Below, in pieces: positions 17,594-26,181 of a stretch of DNA of 64,000 nt (the first letter of the stretch is position 1; every line of letters starts with the position of its first letter). The stretch spans positions 1 through 64,000 of the forward strand of contig NZ_JAHBZJ010000009.1 in the NCBI RefSeq assembly GCF_019635455.1, read 5' to 3'. The position numbers were made by a program, and so were the translations under genes. This DNA comes from Sphingomonas sp. (GTDB taxonomy: Bacteria; Pseudomonadota; Alphaproteobacteria; Sphingomonadales; Sphingomonadaceae). The notes beneath the pieces were generated by a model, which was not told where the DNA came from, did not search any database, and worked only from the letters and a program-made list of their open reading frames with translations.

Positions 17594-18640
17594 CTATTTC
17601 AGGATCGTTTCCGCATCGACGATCCGGATGTCGTGCATCTGGCGCAGATAGGCCTCGAAATAGGGTTTGTGCGACGCGCCCACGATCGTCAGCAGGCGCG
17701 AGCCGGGGGCGGCCGCCAGCGTTTCGCGGATATTGGCGACCATGCGCAGATTCCGGACCTCCCACGCGCCGGTATATTGCCGGCCAAACCGCTGGGGCGA
17801 GGGATCGCGCAACGCGGCGCCGAAATCGCTGCGATAGATGAGCGGGAAGGTCGCCGGATCGTTGAAGCCACGATAGAGCGCGAGCAGGCCACCCGGCGCC
17901 GTGATGCCCGCCATCAACCGGTCGCCATCCTTTCGACGCGCCGTCGATGCGGGGTTGTCCCATTGCTTTTGAACGGCGGCGAAAAAGGCGGAGGGATCCG
18001 AAATGGCAAGGTCAGAGGTGTGATCGTCGGTCGCGAACACCCGCTCCAGGCCCAGTCGCGCGGCGAGCGGCGCGGCGATCGCGTAATTTTCGTTATGCCG
18101 TGTCCGCAGCTTTTCGAGCGCGGCGACGAGGGTATCGTCCAGCCCGTCGCCGGCGCGGCGCTCCGCCTCTGGCAGGCGAAGCCACTGGACGAGCGCGGAG
18201 GCCGGTTCACCCCCGGCGAGGAACAGCGCGGCGAGCCGCCGTCGCGTCGATGCGGGCGGCGCGGTGCCAAGCGTGGCGAGCAGCGTGTCGGCCTCCGCCG
18301 TCGCGGCGGGGACGTCCAGGCCGGTCGCGGCGCGGGCGGGGGCGACGTCCCAACAATAATCCGCCACCGTCTCTTTCCAGCGCGCGGGGAAGCTGCGCAG
18401 ATATGCGCACTGCATCCCCGACAGCGCCTCGATCGTGACGATCTGTGGGCGATAGGCGGCGAGCTTGGCCAGGAGCGGTTCGAAGCTGGCCGGATAGCGG
18501 TCCTTTGGAATACCCGACAGATGCGGCGTGCCGAGCACCAGCACCTGGTTGGCGGGCGTCACCGGGGGCTTTTGCGCGGCGAGGTCGAACGCCTGGGGCG
18601 AACCGGCAGCGAGGACGAGGGCGGAGAGGAACTTCAACAT
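17594..18640 (-). CDS. DUF5694-like protein (TraB/GumN-like fold)
   Basis: 348-aa protein. A short hydrophobic N-terminus may be a signal peptide. The family pattern is visible: VLVLGTPHLSGIP near residue 33, IVTIEAL, RHNENYAIAAPLA, and a C-terminal LLTIVGASHKPYFEAYLRQ. This is the conserved Glu/His layout of the TraB/GumN/ChaN-type fold, in which metal-dependent hydrolase activity is suspected but unproven. The ATG has no ribosome-binding site, because an operator-like palindrome fills the space. No other start is in frame before a stop at 18674. Confidence 0.75.
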   Translation of the reverse strand: MLKFLSALVLAAGSPQAFDLAAQKPPVTPANQVLVLGTPHLSGIPKDRYPASFEPLLAKLAAYRPQIVTIEALSGMQCAYLRSFPARWKETVADYCWDVAPARAATGLDVPAATAEADTLLATLGTAPPASTRRRLAALFLAGGEPASALVQWLRLPEAERRAGDGLDDTLVAALEKLRTRHNENYAIAAPLAARLGLERVFATDDHTSDLAISDPSAFFAAVQKQWDNPASTARRKDGDRLMAGITAPGGLLALYRGFNDPATFPLIYRSDFGAALRDPSPQRFGRQYTGAWEVRNLRMVANIRETLAAAPGSRLLTIVGASHKPYFEAYLRQMHDIRIVDAETILK

Positions 18641-18642
18641 CG

Positions 18643-18677
18643 CCGACTGTATTGCATGTACAATACAGTCGGGTCAA
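18643..18677 (-). promoter_or_regulatory. Operator-like palindrome overlapping a likely leaderless promoter
   Basis: A perfect 12-bp inverted repeat (CCGACTGTATTG / CAATACAGTCGG, six-base spacer CATGTA) spans 18643-18672, two bases upstream of the DUF5694 ATG. On the minus strand TTGACC (18672-18677) and CAATAC (18649-18654) are 17 bases apart, so transcription would start on or just before the ATG with the palindrome covering the promoter. The size and symmetry fit a TetR-type repressor site. No T-tract follows, so it is not a terminator for eda. No regulator gene is adjacent. Confidence 0.6.
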
Positions 18678-18681
18678 CGCA

Positions 18682-19287
18682 TCAGCGAAGACCCGCCGCC
18701 TCGCGCGCCAGCGCCTCGACCTCGGCCATGTCCGCGCCCTTTGGCGTGACCCAGCTGCCGCCCACGCACAGGACGGGATCGAAGCCGAGCCAGTCGGGCG
18801 CCGTCGCCGCGCTGACCCCGCCGGTGGGGCAGAACTTCGCCTCGTAGAACGGCGCGGCGAGTGCCTTCAACGCCTTCAGTCCGCCGCTGGTCTCCGCCGG
18901 AAAGAATTTGAAATGGCGCAGGCCCAGGTCATATCCGCGCATGATGTCGCCGGCATTGGCGATCCCCGGCAGGAACGGGACGCCGCTATCGACGATCACC
19001 CGGCCGAGATGTTCGGTCAGGCCCGGGGAGACGATGAACTCCGCACCGGCGTCCATCACCTGTGCGAACTGATCGGTATTCACGACCGTCCCGGCGCCGA
19101 CGATCGCGCCGTCCACCTGCTTCATTTCGCGGATCGCATCGAGCGCGGCGGGGGTTCGCATCGTCACTTCGAGCACGCGCAGCCCGCCCTTGACGAGCGC
19201 CTGAGCCAGCGGGCGGGCGGTGGCGGCGTCGTCGATCACCAGCACCGGGATGACGGCGCTGGTGCGCATGATGGTTTCGATCGTCAC
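18682..19287 (-). CDS. eda: KDPG/KHG aldolase
   Basis: 201-aa aldolase that splits 2-keto-3-deoxy-6-phosphogluconate to pyruvate and glyceraldehyde 3-phosphate, the last Entner-Doudoroff step. The GAGTV segment, the FKFFPAE motif bearing the Schiff-base Lys, and CPTGGV are present. It begins with GTG, overlapping the glk stop as GTGA. Last gene of zwf-pgl-edd-glk-eda. Confidence 0.96.
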   Translation of the reverse strand: MTIETIMRTSAVIPVLVIDDAATARPLAQALVKGGLRVLEVTMRTPAALDAIREMKQVDGAIVGAGTVVNTDQFAQVMDAGAEFIVSPGLTEHLGRVIVDSGVPFLPGIANAGDIMRGYDLGLRHFKFFPAETSGGLKALKALAAPFYEAKFCPTGGVSAATAPDWLGFDPVLCVGGSWVTPKGADMAEVEALAREAAGLR

Positions 19288-20255
19288 TGAGTATGCTCCT
19301 GCGCATAGGCCGCCGCGGCGCCGTACAGGCCGGGCTCGGGATAGGTGATGAGTTTGACCGGGATCGAGGCCATCAGCTGCTGAAACCGGCCCTTTGCGAC
19401 GAAACGCTGGGCAAAGCCGGAGCCGAGCAGATGGTCCCTCAGCCGCAGGCCAAGGCCGCCGGCGATCACCACCCCGGTCGGGCCGTGCGCGAGGGCGAGG
19501 TCGCCCGCGACGGCGCCGAGGCTGAGGCAGAAGCGGTCGAGCGCGGCGACCGCCAGGCTGTCCTTCCCCTCCAGCGCGAGCGTCCAGATTTCCCGGTCGC
19601 TGCGGCTGCCCACCGGCTTGCCTTCGAGCGCGGCGAGGGTTTCATAGATCGGAACGATGCCCGGACCGGCGACGATCCGCTCGGCCGAAACGCGGGTATA
19701 GGTCGTGCGCAGCCGCTTGACGATCGCATCCTCGATCCCGTCGAGCGGGGCGAAGTCCATATGGCCGCCCTCGGTCGAGATGACGTGATATGCGCCCTTT
19801 GGCGCGCGGAATACCTGTGCGACGCCAAGCCCGGTCCCGGGGCCGCAGATGGTGATCGCCCCCTTTTCGGGAAGCGGCTTTTCGGGGCCGCACAGATGGA
19901 CGAACTCGCTGTCGGGAAGCTGCGCGACGGCATGGCCGACCGCGCCGAAGTCGTTGATGAGCGAGTAGCTGTCCACCTCGAGCCGCTCGTGAATCAGCGG
20001 CGGCCGGATGATCCACGGATTGTTGGTCAGCTTGATCAGCTCGTCGTTGATCGGTGAGGCGATGGCGATCGCCGCGGCGCGCGGCATCGGCCGGTCGAAC
20101 GCGCGGGCCGATGCCTGCCAGGCCAGCTGGAAGCTGCCATGTTCGGCGGTCTTTTGCGTGACCGGCTCGCCGATGCTGACGACACGGCCCCCCTCCACCT
20201 CGGCAATGGCGAAGCGCGCATGGGTTCCGCCGATATCGACTGCGACGACTTCCAT
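19284..20255 (-). CDS. glk: Glucokinase
   Basis: 323-aa proteobacterial glucokinase (Glk family). The N-terminal phosphate loop [10 protein letters not shown] is at residues 7-16, with [10 protein letters not shown] and [11 protein letters not shown] further on for ATP and sugar binding. GGAGAG precedes the ATG. It provides glucose 6-phosphate for the Entner-Doudoroff genes in the same operon. Confidence 0.96.
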
Positions 20256-20278: not shown

Positions 20279-22099
20279 TCAGAATCCGGCGGCGGCAAGC
20301 ATCGCCGAACCGCCGGCCTCGGCCTCGCTCGCGCCGGCGCGCATCATGGCGAAAAGTTCGCGGCCGACACCCATTTCGGGCGGCGGTGGCGCCGCCTGTT
20401 CACGCGCGTCCCATTCGGCGGCATCGACCCGTGCCGACAGTTCGCCGCGTTCGGCGCAGACGCGCACGACATCGCCGTCGCGCAGCTTGCCGATCGGCCC
20501 GCCGCCCAGCGCTTCGGGCGAGAGGTGGATGGCCGCCGGCACCTTGCCGCTCGCCCCCGACATGCGGCCGTCGGTGACGAGCGCGACGCGAAACCCGCGA
20601 TTCTGGAGCACGCCGAGCGGCGGCGTCAGCTTGTGGAGTTCGGGCATGCCGTTGGCGCGTGGCCCCTGAAACCGCACGACGACGACGACGTCGCGATCCA
20701 GTTCGCCGGCCTTGAACGCATCCTGCACCGATTGCTGGTCGTTGAAGACGCGGCATGGCGCTTCGATCGTCCATCGGTCGCGCTCGACTGCCGACACCTT
20801 GATGCAGGCGCGGCCGAGATTGCCGGAGAGGATGCGAAAGCCGCCCTCAGGCGAGAAGGGGGCATCGATCGTGCGCAGGATCGTATCGTCGCCGCTGGAC
20901 GCATCATGGTCCTGCCAGACCAGCATGTCGTCGGCGATGACGGGACGGCGCGTATAGGCGTCGAGGCTGTCGCCGACCACGGTGACCGTGTCGCGATGCA
21001 GGATCCCGCCCTTCAGCAGTTCGCGGATCACGAAGGTGGGACCGCCCGCATCCTCGAACCCGTTCACGTCGGCCGAACCGTTGGGATAGACGCGGGCGAG
21101 CAGCGGGACGGCGCGCGAAAGGCGGTCGAAATCGTCCCAGTCGATCCGGATACCGGCGCAGCGCGCGATGGCGGGCAGGTGGATCAGGTGGTTGGTCGAT
21201 CCGCCGGTGGCCAGAAGCACGATCGCCGCATTGACGATCGCGCGTTCGTCGATGACCTCACCGATCGGCCGGTAATCGTCGCCCTTCCAGCCGATCTGCG
21301 GCAGCCGCTGGACGGCGGCGCGGGTGAGTTCCTGGCGCAGTTTCGTGCCGGGATTGGCAAAGGCGGCGCCCGGCATATGCAGGCCCATCGCCTCGACCAT
21401 CATCTGGTTCGAATTGGCGGTGCCGTAAAAGGTGCAGGTCCCCTTGCCGTGATAGGCTGCGATTTCGGAATCAAGCAGTTCCTCGCGGCTCGCCTTGCCT
21501 TCGGCATAGAGTTCGCGGACACGCGCCTTTTCCTTGTTGGGGATGCCGGTGCGCATCGGGCCGCCGGGGATCAGCACCATCGGCAGATGCCCGAAGCGCA
21601 GCGCCCCCATCAACAGGCCCGGCACGATCTTGTCGCAGATGCCGAGCAGGGCCGCGCCCTCGAAGGTGTTGTGACTGAGCGCGACGGCGGTCGAGAGCGC
21701 GATCGTGTCGCGGCTGAACAGGGACAGCTCCATGCCCGCATAGCCCTGGGTCACGCCATCGCACATCGCGGGGACGCCGCCGGCCACCTGTGCCGTGGCA
21801 CCGGCCTCCAGCGCCCAGACCTTCATCTGTTCGGGATAGCGGTAATAGGGCGCGTGCGCCGAGAGCATGTCGTTATAGGCGGTGACGATGCCGATGTTCA
21901 TGGCGGTCGCCGGTTTCAACGCGTCGCGCTGTTCATCGGTGCCGGCATAGGCATGGGCGAGGTTCGCACAGCCCAGGCGCGGCCGGCCGATGCCGGTTTC
22001 GCGCTGTCGCCGCATCAGATCGAGATAGGCGGCACGCGATTCGCGTGAGCGTTCGATGACGCGATCGGTGACCGCGGCGATTTCGGGGTGGATCGACAT
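20279..22099 (-). CDS. edd: Phosphogluconate dehydratase
   Basis: 606-aa iron-sulfur dehydratase that turns 6-phosphogluconate into KDPG. The family signatures are present, including [29 protein letters not shown] and the C-terminal [11 protein letters not shown]. It is five bases from pgl upstream and 23 bases from glk downstream. Full length. Confidence 0.97.
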
Positions 22100-22104
22100 C
22101 GCGA

Positions 22105-22812
22105 CTATGCCAGCCAGTGGATATCGACCGGCAGCTCGGTGTCGGCGAGCACCCGGCCGATCGGATAGGGGGACGAAGGCCCCTGGGCGATCGCCTGTTC
22201 AAGGACCTTGCGCTTTTCCGCGCCGCTGATCGCGATCATCAGCGCCTTTGCCGAGGCGATGGCCCCGCCGGACAGCGTCACGCGCGCGACGGGCGCCTCC
22301 GGCGGCAGCGGGTCGGGCATCACGCCCAGCGCGCGGCGCTCCTTCGGCCCATTCAGCGCCTCATCAAGATCGGGTCCGGGAAAGATCGAGGCGGTGTGGC
22401 CATCGCTGCCCATGCCGAGCAGGACGAGGTCGAGCGGCCAGTGAAAGTCGGTAAGGCGGGCATCGGCGGCGCGGCCGACCGCCTTGTAATCCTCGGCCTT
22501 CTCGCTGACGAGCGGGATGACGCGCGCGCCCTTTGGAATGAAGGTTTTGCCCAGGCCGGTGACATTCGACATCGGATCGCCCAGCGGCACGATGCGATCG
22601 TCGGTCGGGACGATCGTGACGCGTTTCCAGTCGATCTTTGCGGCGGCAAGCTGCGCATAGACCGGGGCGGGGGTCTTGCCACCGGCCAGCGCGATCACCG
22701 CGCCGCCGCGCGCATCGATCGCGCTGTCGATGATGAAGGCGATGTCGCCGGCCAGCGCATCGCACCATTCTTCCGACTCTTCATATTCCCACCATTCGAT
22801 TTCTTCGGCCAT
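22105..22812 (-). CDS. pgl: 6-phosphogluconolactonase
   Basis: 235-aa DevB-type lactonase that opens 6-phosphogluconolactone. It has the family segments LAGGKTPAPVY, VPTDDRIVPLGDPMSN and LLGMGSDGHTASIFPG. The N-terminus is strongly acidic (MAEEIEWWEYEESEEW). GGAGAG precedes the ATG. Between zwf and edd, in pathway order. Confidence 0.95.
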   Translation of the reverse strand: MAEEIEWWEYEESEEWCDALAGDIAFIIDSAIDARGGAVIALAGGKTPAPVYAQLAAAKIDWKRVTIVPTDDRIVPLGDPMSNVTGLGKTFIPKGARVIPLVSEKAEDYKAVGRAADARLTDFHWPLDLVLLGMGSDGHTASIFPGPDLDEALNGPKERRALGVMPDPLPPEAPVARVTLSGGAIASAKALMIAISGAEKRKVLEQAIAQGPSSPYPIGRVLADTELPVDIHWLA

Positions 22813-25325: not shown

Positions 25326-25699
25326 TGCGCGGCCTTCAGGCAATTGGCGTCCACATAGCCGACAAGACCTGCCGCCGGCGCGCGGCCCCAGGCGTAACCG
25401 GCCGAGAGTTCAAGCACCTCGAACAGGTCGCCCGATCCCAGGCTGGTCAGGATTTCGGCATTGTCGGCGCGCGATTCGACCAGCGGGGTCGCGGTCGTCA
25501 CGATCCAGGTCAGCGGGGCTGCATAATGCGGTGCGAACACGCGATCGGCCAGGCGCACATCGGCCAGGTCACGGCGCGCGGCGTCAGTTCGCGGATCGAT
25601 ATGCACCGAGCGCCCGGTGAGCGCGAATCGGCTACGCGTGCTCCCTGACGGGTTGTCCGGCGTGGCCGTCGCCGGTGACGAATTGCCCGAATTCTGCAA
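25322..25699 (-). CDS. SH3-domain protein, apparently lacking its NlpC/P60 partner domain
   Basis: 125-aa protein whose N-terminal part (RFALTGRSVHIDPRTDAARRDLADVRLAD) and SH3 fold (FEVLELSAGYAWGRAPAAGLVGYV) look like the front of sphingomonad C40 (NlpC/P60) cell-wall peptidases. It stops right after the SH3 domain, so the catalytic domain is absent. The only ATG gives a 68-base overlap with the MarR gene upstream, and a later GTG start is possible. Its stop overlaps the argC start. It may be a remnant or a binding-only protein. The comparison with C40 peptidases is from memory of the family. Confidence 0.65.
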   Translation of the reverse strand: MQNSGNSSPATATPDNPSGSTRSRFALTGRSVHIDPRTDAARRDLADVRLADRVFAPHYAAPLTWIVTTATPLVESRADNAEILTSLGSGDLFEVLELSAGYAWGRAPAAGLVGYVDANCLKAAQ

Positions 25700-25991
25700 G
25701 AAAGTCCGCCCCTTCCGGTGTTCGTGCGACGAAGATGTTTCGCTTGTCGGTTTCGTCGCGCTGGCGGCGCAGATAGCCGAGTGCGCCCAGCCTGTTCAAG
25801 GCGCGCGTGACCACGGGCTTGGAGACGTTGAGCGCGCGGGCCAGACCGCGCACCGTATGTGGCCCGACGTCCAGATAGACGAGCAACATCAGCGCCATCT
25901 GTCGGTTGGTCAGATCGGGTTCGCCCGATCGGACATAGTCGATCAGGGTGTTTTTCCACTGGAATAGCGATTTTTCGCTCATCGCGTTCAT
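25632..25991 (-). CDS. MarR-family winged-helix regulator
   Basis: 119-aa DNA-binding protein with a winged helix at about residues 30-100: TVRGLARALNVSKPVVTRALNRLGALGYLRR is the helix-turn-helix, followed by a wing with DKRNIFV. Start choices are ATG 25991 (MNAMSEKS), ATG 25982, or TTG 26027; none has a strong ribosome-binding site. Its end overlaps the SH3 gene. Effector and targets are unknown; the SH3 gene and argC could be co-transcribed with it. Confidence 0.85.
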   Translation of the reverse strand: MNAMSEKSLFQWKNTLIDYVRSGEPDLTNRQMALMLLVYLDVGPHTVRGLARALNVSKPVVTRALNRLGALGYLRRQRDETDKRNIFVARTPEGADFLAEFGQFVTGDGHAGQPVREHA

Positions 25992-26181
25992 CGCGCCACA
26001 CTCGCTGCTTCTGTTACACACCCGCAAGAAGCCGGGCTTTCAGCCGCATTAACGCCCCGATAGCCAACGGGTTTCAGCGCGGGCGCGAAATGTTCCGTTT
26101 CTGTGACGATCGCAAATCCCATCGGCGGTTGATCGCGGGCGCTCCGGTGACTATGTGGCCGCTTTCCCGCGAAAGACCGAC

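Follow-up and report, generated by a model that had tools for sequence, protein, structure and literature searches.

A perfect palindrome lying between eda and a DUF5694 gene in a Sphingomonas genome is very likely the operator of a regulon shared by Sphingomonas and its near relatives, whose putative regulator is a 118-amino-acid GntR protein of the YtrA type encoded in trans. The core of the palindrome recurs across the genus, it travels with DUF5694 genes, and a copy of it is positioned on the regulator gene (hereafter ytrA). From sequence comparisons of this kind we infer the remainder, i.e., binding and repression by YtrA, the signal that would relieve repression, and the points at which transcription would start.

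The palindrome and its recurrent core

The palindrome was found in a 64-kb stretch of DNA that was analysed as a whole (the window). It is an exact inverted repeat, CCGACTGTATTG-N6-CAATACAGTCGG, and the window reads CCGACTGTATTGCATGTACAATACAGTCGG at these positions (Table 1). On the minus strand, the stop codon of eda (18684-18682) is followed by the palindrome and then by the ATG of the DUF5694 gene, which begins at 18640, 41 nt from the stop codon. The first-pass annotation had described a perfect 12-bp palindrome here, together with the elements TTGACC, CAATAC and an ATG, and had assigned the downstream gene to DUF5694. Letters and coordinates agree with the sequence, the three elements lie where they had been placed, and the gene assignment is borne out by its Pfam match. 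A spacer of 17 bp separates TTGACC from CAATAC, and another 8 nt lead to the ATG. The match of this pair to a promoter consensus is weak, however, and a sigma-70 promoter scan of 18400-18900 returned no match.

Table 1. Features of the window at and around the palindrome
Feature	Coordinates	Strand	Basis and remarks
DUF5694 gene, 348 aa	17594..18640	-	PF18950, E 1.3e-14; signal-peptide-like N-terminus (by eye)
Perfect inverted repeat, 12-bp arms and 6-bp centre	18643..18672	.	Read from the sequence; compared with simulated windows
22-bp core operator (predicted), STGTATT-N8-AATACAS	18647..18668	.	Found repeatedly in the genus, including copies ahead of DUF5694 genes and at ytrA genes
-10-like CAATAC within the right half-site	18649..18654	-	Read from the sequence; 2/6 to TATAAT, weak; missed by the promoter scan
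-35-like TTGACC	18672..18677	-	Read from the sequence; 5/6 to TTGACA; not in any scan-predicted promoter
eda (KDPG aldolase)	18682..19287	-	PF01081
glk	19284-20255	-	PF02685
edd	20279-22099	-	PF00920/PF24877
pgl	22105-22812	-	PF01182

No other perfect 12-bp inverted repeat with a loop of up to 20 nt is present in the window. Since 12 Markov-1 simulations of the window yielded four such repeats in total (mean 0.33), the length of the palindrome is in itself unremarkable and no proof of function. A search of the genome for further copies, as the first-pass annotation had recommended, gave a divided answer: the full repeat is single, and a 22-bp core of it is recurrent. With up to three mismatches allowed, neither a search of the window for the 30-mer nor one of the genome for the inner 26 bp returned a further copy. 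A looser search revealed the core in relatives and led to the motif STGTATT-N8-AATACAS. Among 81 genomes of the same genus, this motif occurs at 317 sites with at most one mismatch, compared with 30 for the reversed pattern, and 78 of the 81 genomes carry at least one such site. The window's own genome contains seven sites versus none for the reversed pattern at up to one mismatch, 16 versus five at up to two, and 52 versus 19 at up to three. Given the five reversed-pattern hits, some of the 16 sites are due to chance. On the contig of the window, the site described here is the only copy at up to two mismatches. Thus, it is the recurrence of the core, and not the length of the palindrome, that stands above chance.

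Alignment of 41 sites on the motif gave the consensus STGTATTR-N6-YAATACAS, in which GT at positions 3-4 is present in all 41 and AC at positions 19-20 in 40, the sites having been picked by the motif itself. When these 41 sites were oriented, no clear shared promoter columns appeared outside the motif. The geometry of operator and promoter therefore seems to vary among targets, and a general -35/-10 at a fixed offset from the operator was rejected.

Association of the site with DUF5694 genes

Within the genus, a site with at most two mismatches lies upstream of 9 of 12 DUF5694 genes (that of the window and those of 8 of 11 relatives), whereas the reversed pattern has a minimum of four mismatches at the same loci. 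The remaining three have no site at this threshold. The 12 loci were drawn from 18; the second piece of a broken gene in genome G008 (L013) and the remote relatives L014-L018 were left out, and one of the latter, L018, has a 2-mismatch site. A comparable picture emerged from a set of named organisms, comprising 80 loci kept from 381 relatives, with a "Sphingomonas-like" record counted as Sphingomonas. At up to three mismatches, the site is present at 17 of 26 Sphingomonadales loci (absent from the other nine) and at none of the 54 remaining loci (from Massilia, Duganella, Brevundimonas, Nitrospirillum, Stenotrophomonas and further taxa); for the reversed pattern, the corresponding counts are 0/26 and 1/54. 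This set is largely separate from the same-genus set, the overlap being L128, which is probably the same genome as G003.

The 3' flanks of eda behave differently. Thirty eda loci of the genus were compared; L215 gave no information, because a contig end truncates its flank. None of the 28 informative relatives carries the motif after eda at up to two mismatches, and the window's genome alone has one; two flanks (L208 and L209) contain a 3-mismatch match. Because the motif is absent after eda in these relatives, the comparison assigns the site to the DUF5694 gene and not to eda. By the same reading, the window presents a DUF5694 gene that sits, together with its predicted operator, behind the Entner-Doudoroff genes, and glk, edd and pgl, located upstream of eda on the same strand, are a possible source of read-through. 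In genome G008, the DUF5694 match is split into two pieces (L013 and L019), and the upstream piece has no site below four mismatches, which resembles decay of both the gene and its site.

The first-pass annotation had also emphasized how tightly inverted repeat, promoter and ATG are packed. This is true of the window but not general, because in seven of the eight same-genus relatives with a site at up to two mismatches, the first start codon lies 11-55 nt past the operator; in the eighth (L005), it lies inside the operator. For the DUF5694 gene of the window, the spacing would allow a very short leader if TTGACC/CAATAC, a weak predicted promoter, were indeed used.

The location of the palindrome behind eda raises the alternative that it acts in RNA, forming a hairpin or terminator at the 3' end of the Entner-Doudoroff transcript, whose last gene is eda. 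As RNA read from eda, the palindrome folds at -20 kcal/mol (z -7.3), and a perfect stem of at least 8 bp lies within 150 nt past the eda match in 15 of the 28 informative relatives. However, no T run follows the stem in the window, no intrinsic terminator match was obtained in 18400-18900, and the core motif goes with DUF5694 and other genes rather than with eda. This explanation is therefore very unlikely, and an Entner-Doudoroff terminator as the sole role was rejected, the motif following eda (at up to two mismatches) in the window's genome only, and without a T run there. The stems past eda in the 15 relatives (loci L196-L224) are 8-12 bp long, perfect and mostly GC-rich, and perhaps serve as a 3'-end or mRNA-stability element.

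A role in RNA in addition to that in DNA is doubtful but has somewhat more in its favour. The site would then be a YtrA-type operator in DNA and a hairpin in RNA, combining repressor binding with control of translation or of the 3' end in one sequence. The palindrome runs at least 3 bp past the 22-mer at 9 of 55 sites, compared with a mean of 1.3 on re-paired flanks (0 of 2000 shuffles reached 9), and at least 4 bp past it at 7 of 55 versus 0.55 expected; these counts cover all fetched sites with up to one mismatch after removal of near-duplicates and are otherwise uncorrected for kinship. The window's site extends 4 bp past the core. Two sites at DUF2807-type genes (L042 1501 and L044 2305) extend by 11 and 13 bp, and the added stems would pair with the likely ribosome-binding site.

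As to the DUF5694 protein, a structure model built from 40 sequences reached a pLDDT of 92.7. A comparison with 400 chains by VIA-align 2 gave middling matches (Z 6.0-6.5) that included ChaN (2g5g, Z 6.5) and the erythromycin esterase EreC (6xcq, Z 6.3), and the top matches, above both, were Tetrahymena complex IV chains (Z 9.0). Foldseek returned nothing for the model at E <= 0.001, and the sequence matched none of the solved structures (best E 0.99). DUF5694 proteins share conserved GTPH and GASH motifs, which we take to recall the EreA/ChaN/TIKI group; for that reason, a hydrolase-like role is possible. DUF5694 proteins of Massilia, Duganella, Brevundimonas, Nitrospirillum and Nannocystis are 54-60% identical, as close as those within Sphingomonas, and this closeness of distant genera suggests horizontal spread. 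No paper naming DUF5694 was found in a literature search conducted mostly outside subscription journals.

A YtrA-type protein as candidate regulator

Six GntR matches are present in the window's own genome, five of them above the cut-off. One of the five is a protein of 118 aa, whose gene (G000:C1:373310-373663) overlaps a motif copy with its start. The sixth match, located within the window, fits MarR better; it corresponds to a MarR-family ORF at 25632-26027 on the minus strand, about 7 kb from the site. The 118-aa protein contains a PF00392 GntR winged-helix domain (55.9 bits against a cut-off of 27) at residues 12-74, which leaves 44 residues C-terminally, and its residues 8-113 match the short GntR structure 3tqn (113 aa; E 1.1e-25). 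By its predicted architecture, it has the short length and the reduced C-terminal domain of about 50 residues by which the YtrA subfamily is recognized.

Orthologs of ytrA were found in 78 of the 81 same-genus genomes, and in every one of the 78 the motif lies over the ATG, with two mismatches in 52, three in 25 and four in one. The 30 best-scoring loci were evaluated first (30/30) and the other 48 thereafter (78/78). The start motif, which reads STGTATTA....CATGACAG or a close variant, is never a perfect match. The reversed pattern had at best four mismatches in the first loci scored and three in a single case among the other 48. The left half of the site precedes the gene, and the right half encodes the first residues. 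The second codon has A as its last base in nearly all loci (47 of the 48 evaluated later), although these genes prefer G or C at third codon positions (GC3); this suggests that selection acts on the DNA site. Further upstream, a TGGAC-like box (TCGAC in many rows) is located about 16 bp before TATTAN, and the ATG follows 6 nt later. The conservation of a -35-like box ending in GAC and of TATTA fits a promoter whose transcript would start at or near the ATG. Hence leaderless translation, as proposed by the first-pass annotation for the DUF5694 gene, is plausible, and from the layouts compared here it appears better supported for ytrA than for DUF5694.

The motif copy across the start codon, present in each of the 78 orthologs, makes the 118-aa GntR/YtrA-type protein a likely autorepressor. 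The ytrA site alone is no proof of autoregulation, since a need for a -10 element might preserve its left half and a need for codons its right half; such promoter and coding constraints could account for part of its conservation. One genome of 99% completeness (G088) has two sites at up to one mismatch and no ytrA match at E <= 1e-12, and three genomes (G005, G064 and G082) possess ytrA and have no site at up to one mismatch. Outside the family, ytrA homologs of 40-50% identity were compared from 19 genomes of the order's other families (L226-L244, of which L244 is cut by a contig end). None of the 19 has a start-codon site at up to two mismatches, and two have a 3-mismatch match. The idea that the motif also marks ytrA homologs beyond the family was rejected on these counts, and motif and autoregulation seem to be family-specific.

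Taken with the recurrence and the positions of the motif, these features make it very probable that the site is a repressor operator, as had been predicted. That the regulator acts from elsewhere is likewise supported, by a YtrA-type gene in trans carrying the motif over its own start. On the contrary, the TetR-like factor invoked by the first-pass annotation finds no such support. TetR repressors typically bind palindromic operators that overlap promoters, commonly though not always next to their own gene, and the genome contains 10 TetR_N matches from which one could be drawn. Yet wherever one of the 10 shares a contig with any of the 16 sites, the two are over 36 kb apart (in a draft of 20 contigs, where neighbours across contig ends are unseen), and the motif instead marks the start of the GntR/YtrA gene in all 78 orthologs. 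That a TetR-family repressor acts on the site from elsewhere in the genome is accordingly highly improbable, and on gene positions it was rejected. That the palindrome is a functionless product of chance is scarcely credible: about 0.33 such 12-bp repeats (loop up to 20) are expected per window, and the 30-mer and the inner 26 bp are single in window and genome, respectively, but the 22-bp core, with its 317 matches in the genus against 30 for the reversed pattern and its presence ahead of related DUF5694 genes, is conserved and so not the random single occurrence against which the first-pass annotation had warned.

The predicted regulon and known YtrA systems

The ORFs that adjoin sites with up to one mismatch in the window's own genome encode DUF2807 (GIN/Toastrack), DUF5694, SppA, TelA, an exported methyltransferase-like protein (weak matches), a small lipoprotein-like protein, and a membrane protein that starts with MYSESD and has no Pfam or NCBIfam match. 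SppA, whose start is placed tentatively, has its site next to a divergent GroES-like ORF that may share it. Neighbours of 2-mismatch sites include ytrA and PCMT. Among fetched sites, the recurrent neighbour clusters are DUF2807-type (16), MYSES (7), TelA (3), PCMT (3) and lipoprotein (3), numbers that are not rates, because the sites were fetched by the motif and are mostly the first site per genome. Each of the DUF2807, TelA and PCMT clusters has one member identified by Pfam, to which the others are linked by BLAST. The gene ytrA is directly flanked by ORFs for a polysaccharide deacetylase/glycosyltransferase protein and for a nitroreductase, and no ABC component was detected among the nine ORFs scanned in a 19-kb stretch around ytrA that includes both. 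As these neighbours contain no ABC component, it is only from the targets that we infer an envelope-related role of the regulon. According to the available part of a survey of PSP envelope-stress systems, a GntR regulator can share an operon with both Toastrack and ABC genes (PMC11237479).

In the mechanism that we propose, a YtrA dimer would bind STGTATT-N8-AATACAS and, upstream of the DUF5694 gene, would thereby occlude the -35/-10 region and prevent initiation; it may in addition hinder read-through from the eda operon. YtrA would also repress its own gene through the site across its start codon. Upon a signal that, judging from the targets, may be envelope-related, the repressor would leave its sites, and DUF5694, DUF2807/Toastrack, TelA and others would be co-expressed.

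Such a regulator resembles the YtrA subfamily as known from Bacillus subtilis, Xanthomonas citri and a Corynebacterium glutamicum structure in that a short GntR protein is paired with a long palindrome and distant half-sites. YtrA-type operators are described, in the part available of one report, as long, with GT/AC pairs far from the centre (PMC4494728). For example, the operator of the YtrA-like regulator of X. citri is given in excerpts of another study as GGTG-N16-CACC (PMC6746942), and its spacing equals that of GTG-N16-CAC in the Sphingomonas site. Likely autoregulation is a further shared trait, and an envelope theme possibly another, as B. subtilis YtrA responds to cell-wall antibiotics according to the same excerpts (PMC6746942). 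YtrASa of Sulfolobus acidocaldarius, as far as it is covered there (PMC6746942), similarly represses membrane-protein loci, including its own operon, from a site over the transcription start; it differs in its 14-bp core motif, compact dimer, two targets and archaeal promoters. On the other hand, most YtrA regulons described in the available part of PMC4494728 consist of one ABC-transporter operon, whereas the predicted Sphingomonas regulon is dispersed and the immediate neighbours of ytrA, among the nine ORFs scanned, are not ABC genes. Moreover, the Sphingomonas operator spans the regulator's start codon, unlike those of YtrA systems. The Toastrack (DUF2807/DUF4097) operons in the available part of the PSP survey (PMC11237479) offer a second parallel, since a GntR protein with a distinct C-terminal helical domain is linked there to a Toastrack protein. 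Those operons unite the genes with ABC genes, whereas the Toastrack-type genes of Sphingomonas lie elsewhere and are tied to ytrA by the shared site only. Our literature search, mostly outside subscription journals, revealed no publication on a YtrA regulator from Sphingomonas, and a search by the letters of the motif gave nothing on it among the matches listed.

An orphan palindrome is thereby turned into a testable regulon, in which a single small regulator would act through a single motif on scattered target genes, several of them (DUF5694, DUF2807 and the MYSES membrane protein) of unknown function. The regulon suggests that in Sphingomonas an envelope-related response may be governed by a YtrA that stands alone, lacking the usual ABC transporter, and it would offer a physiological context for the DUF5694 family.
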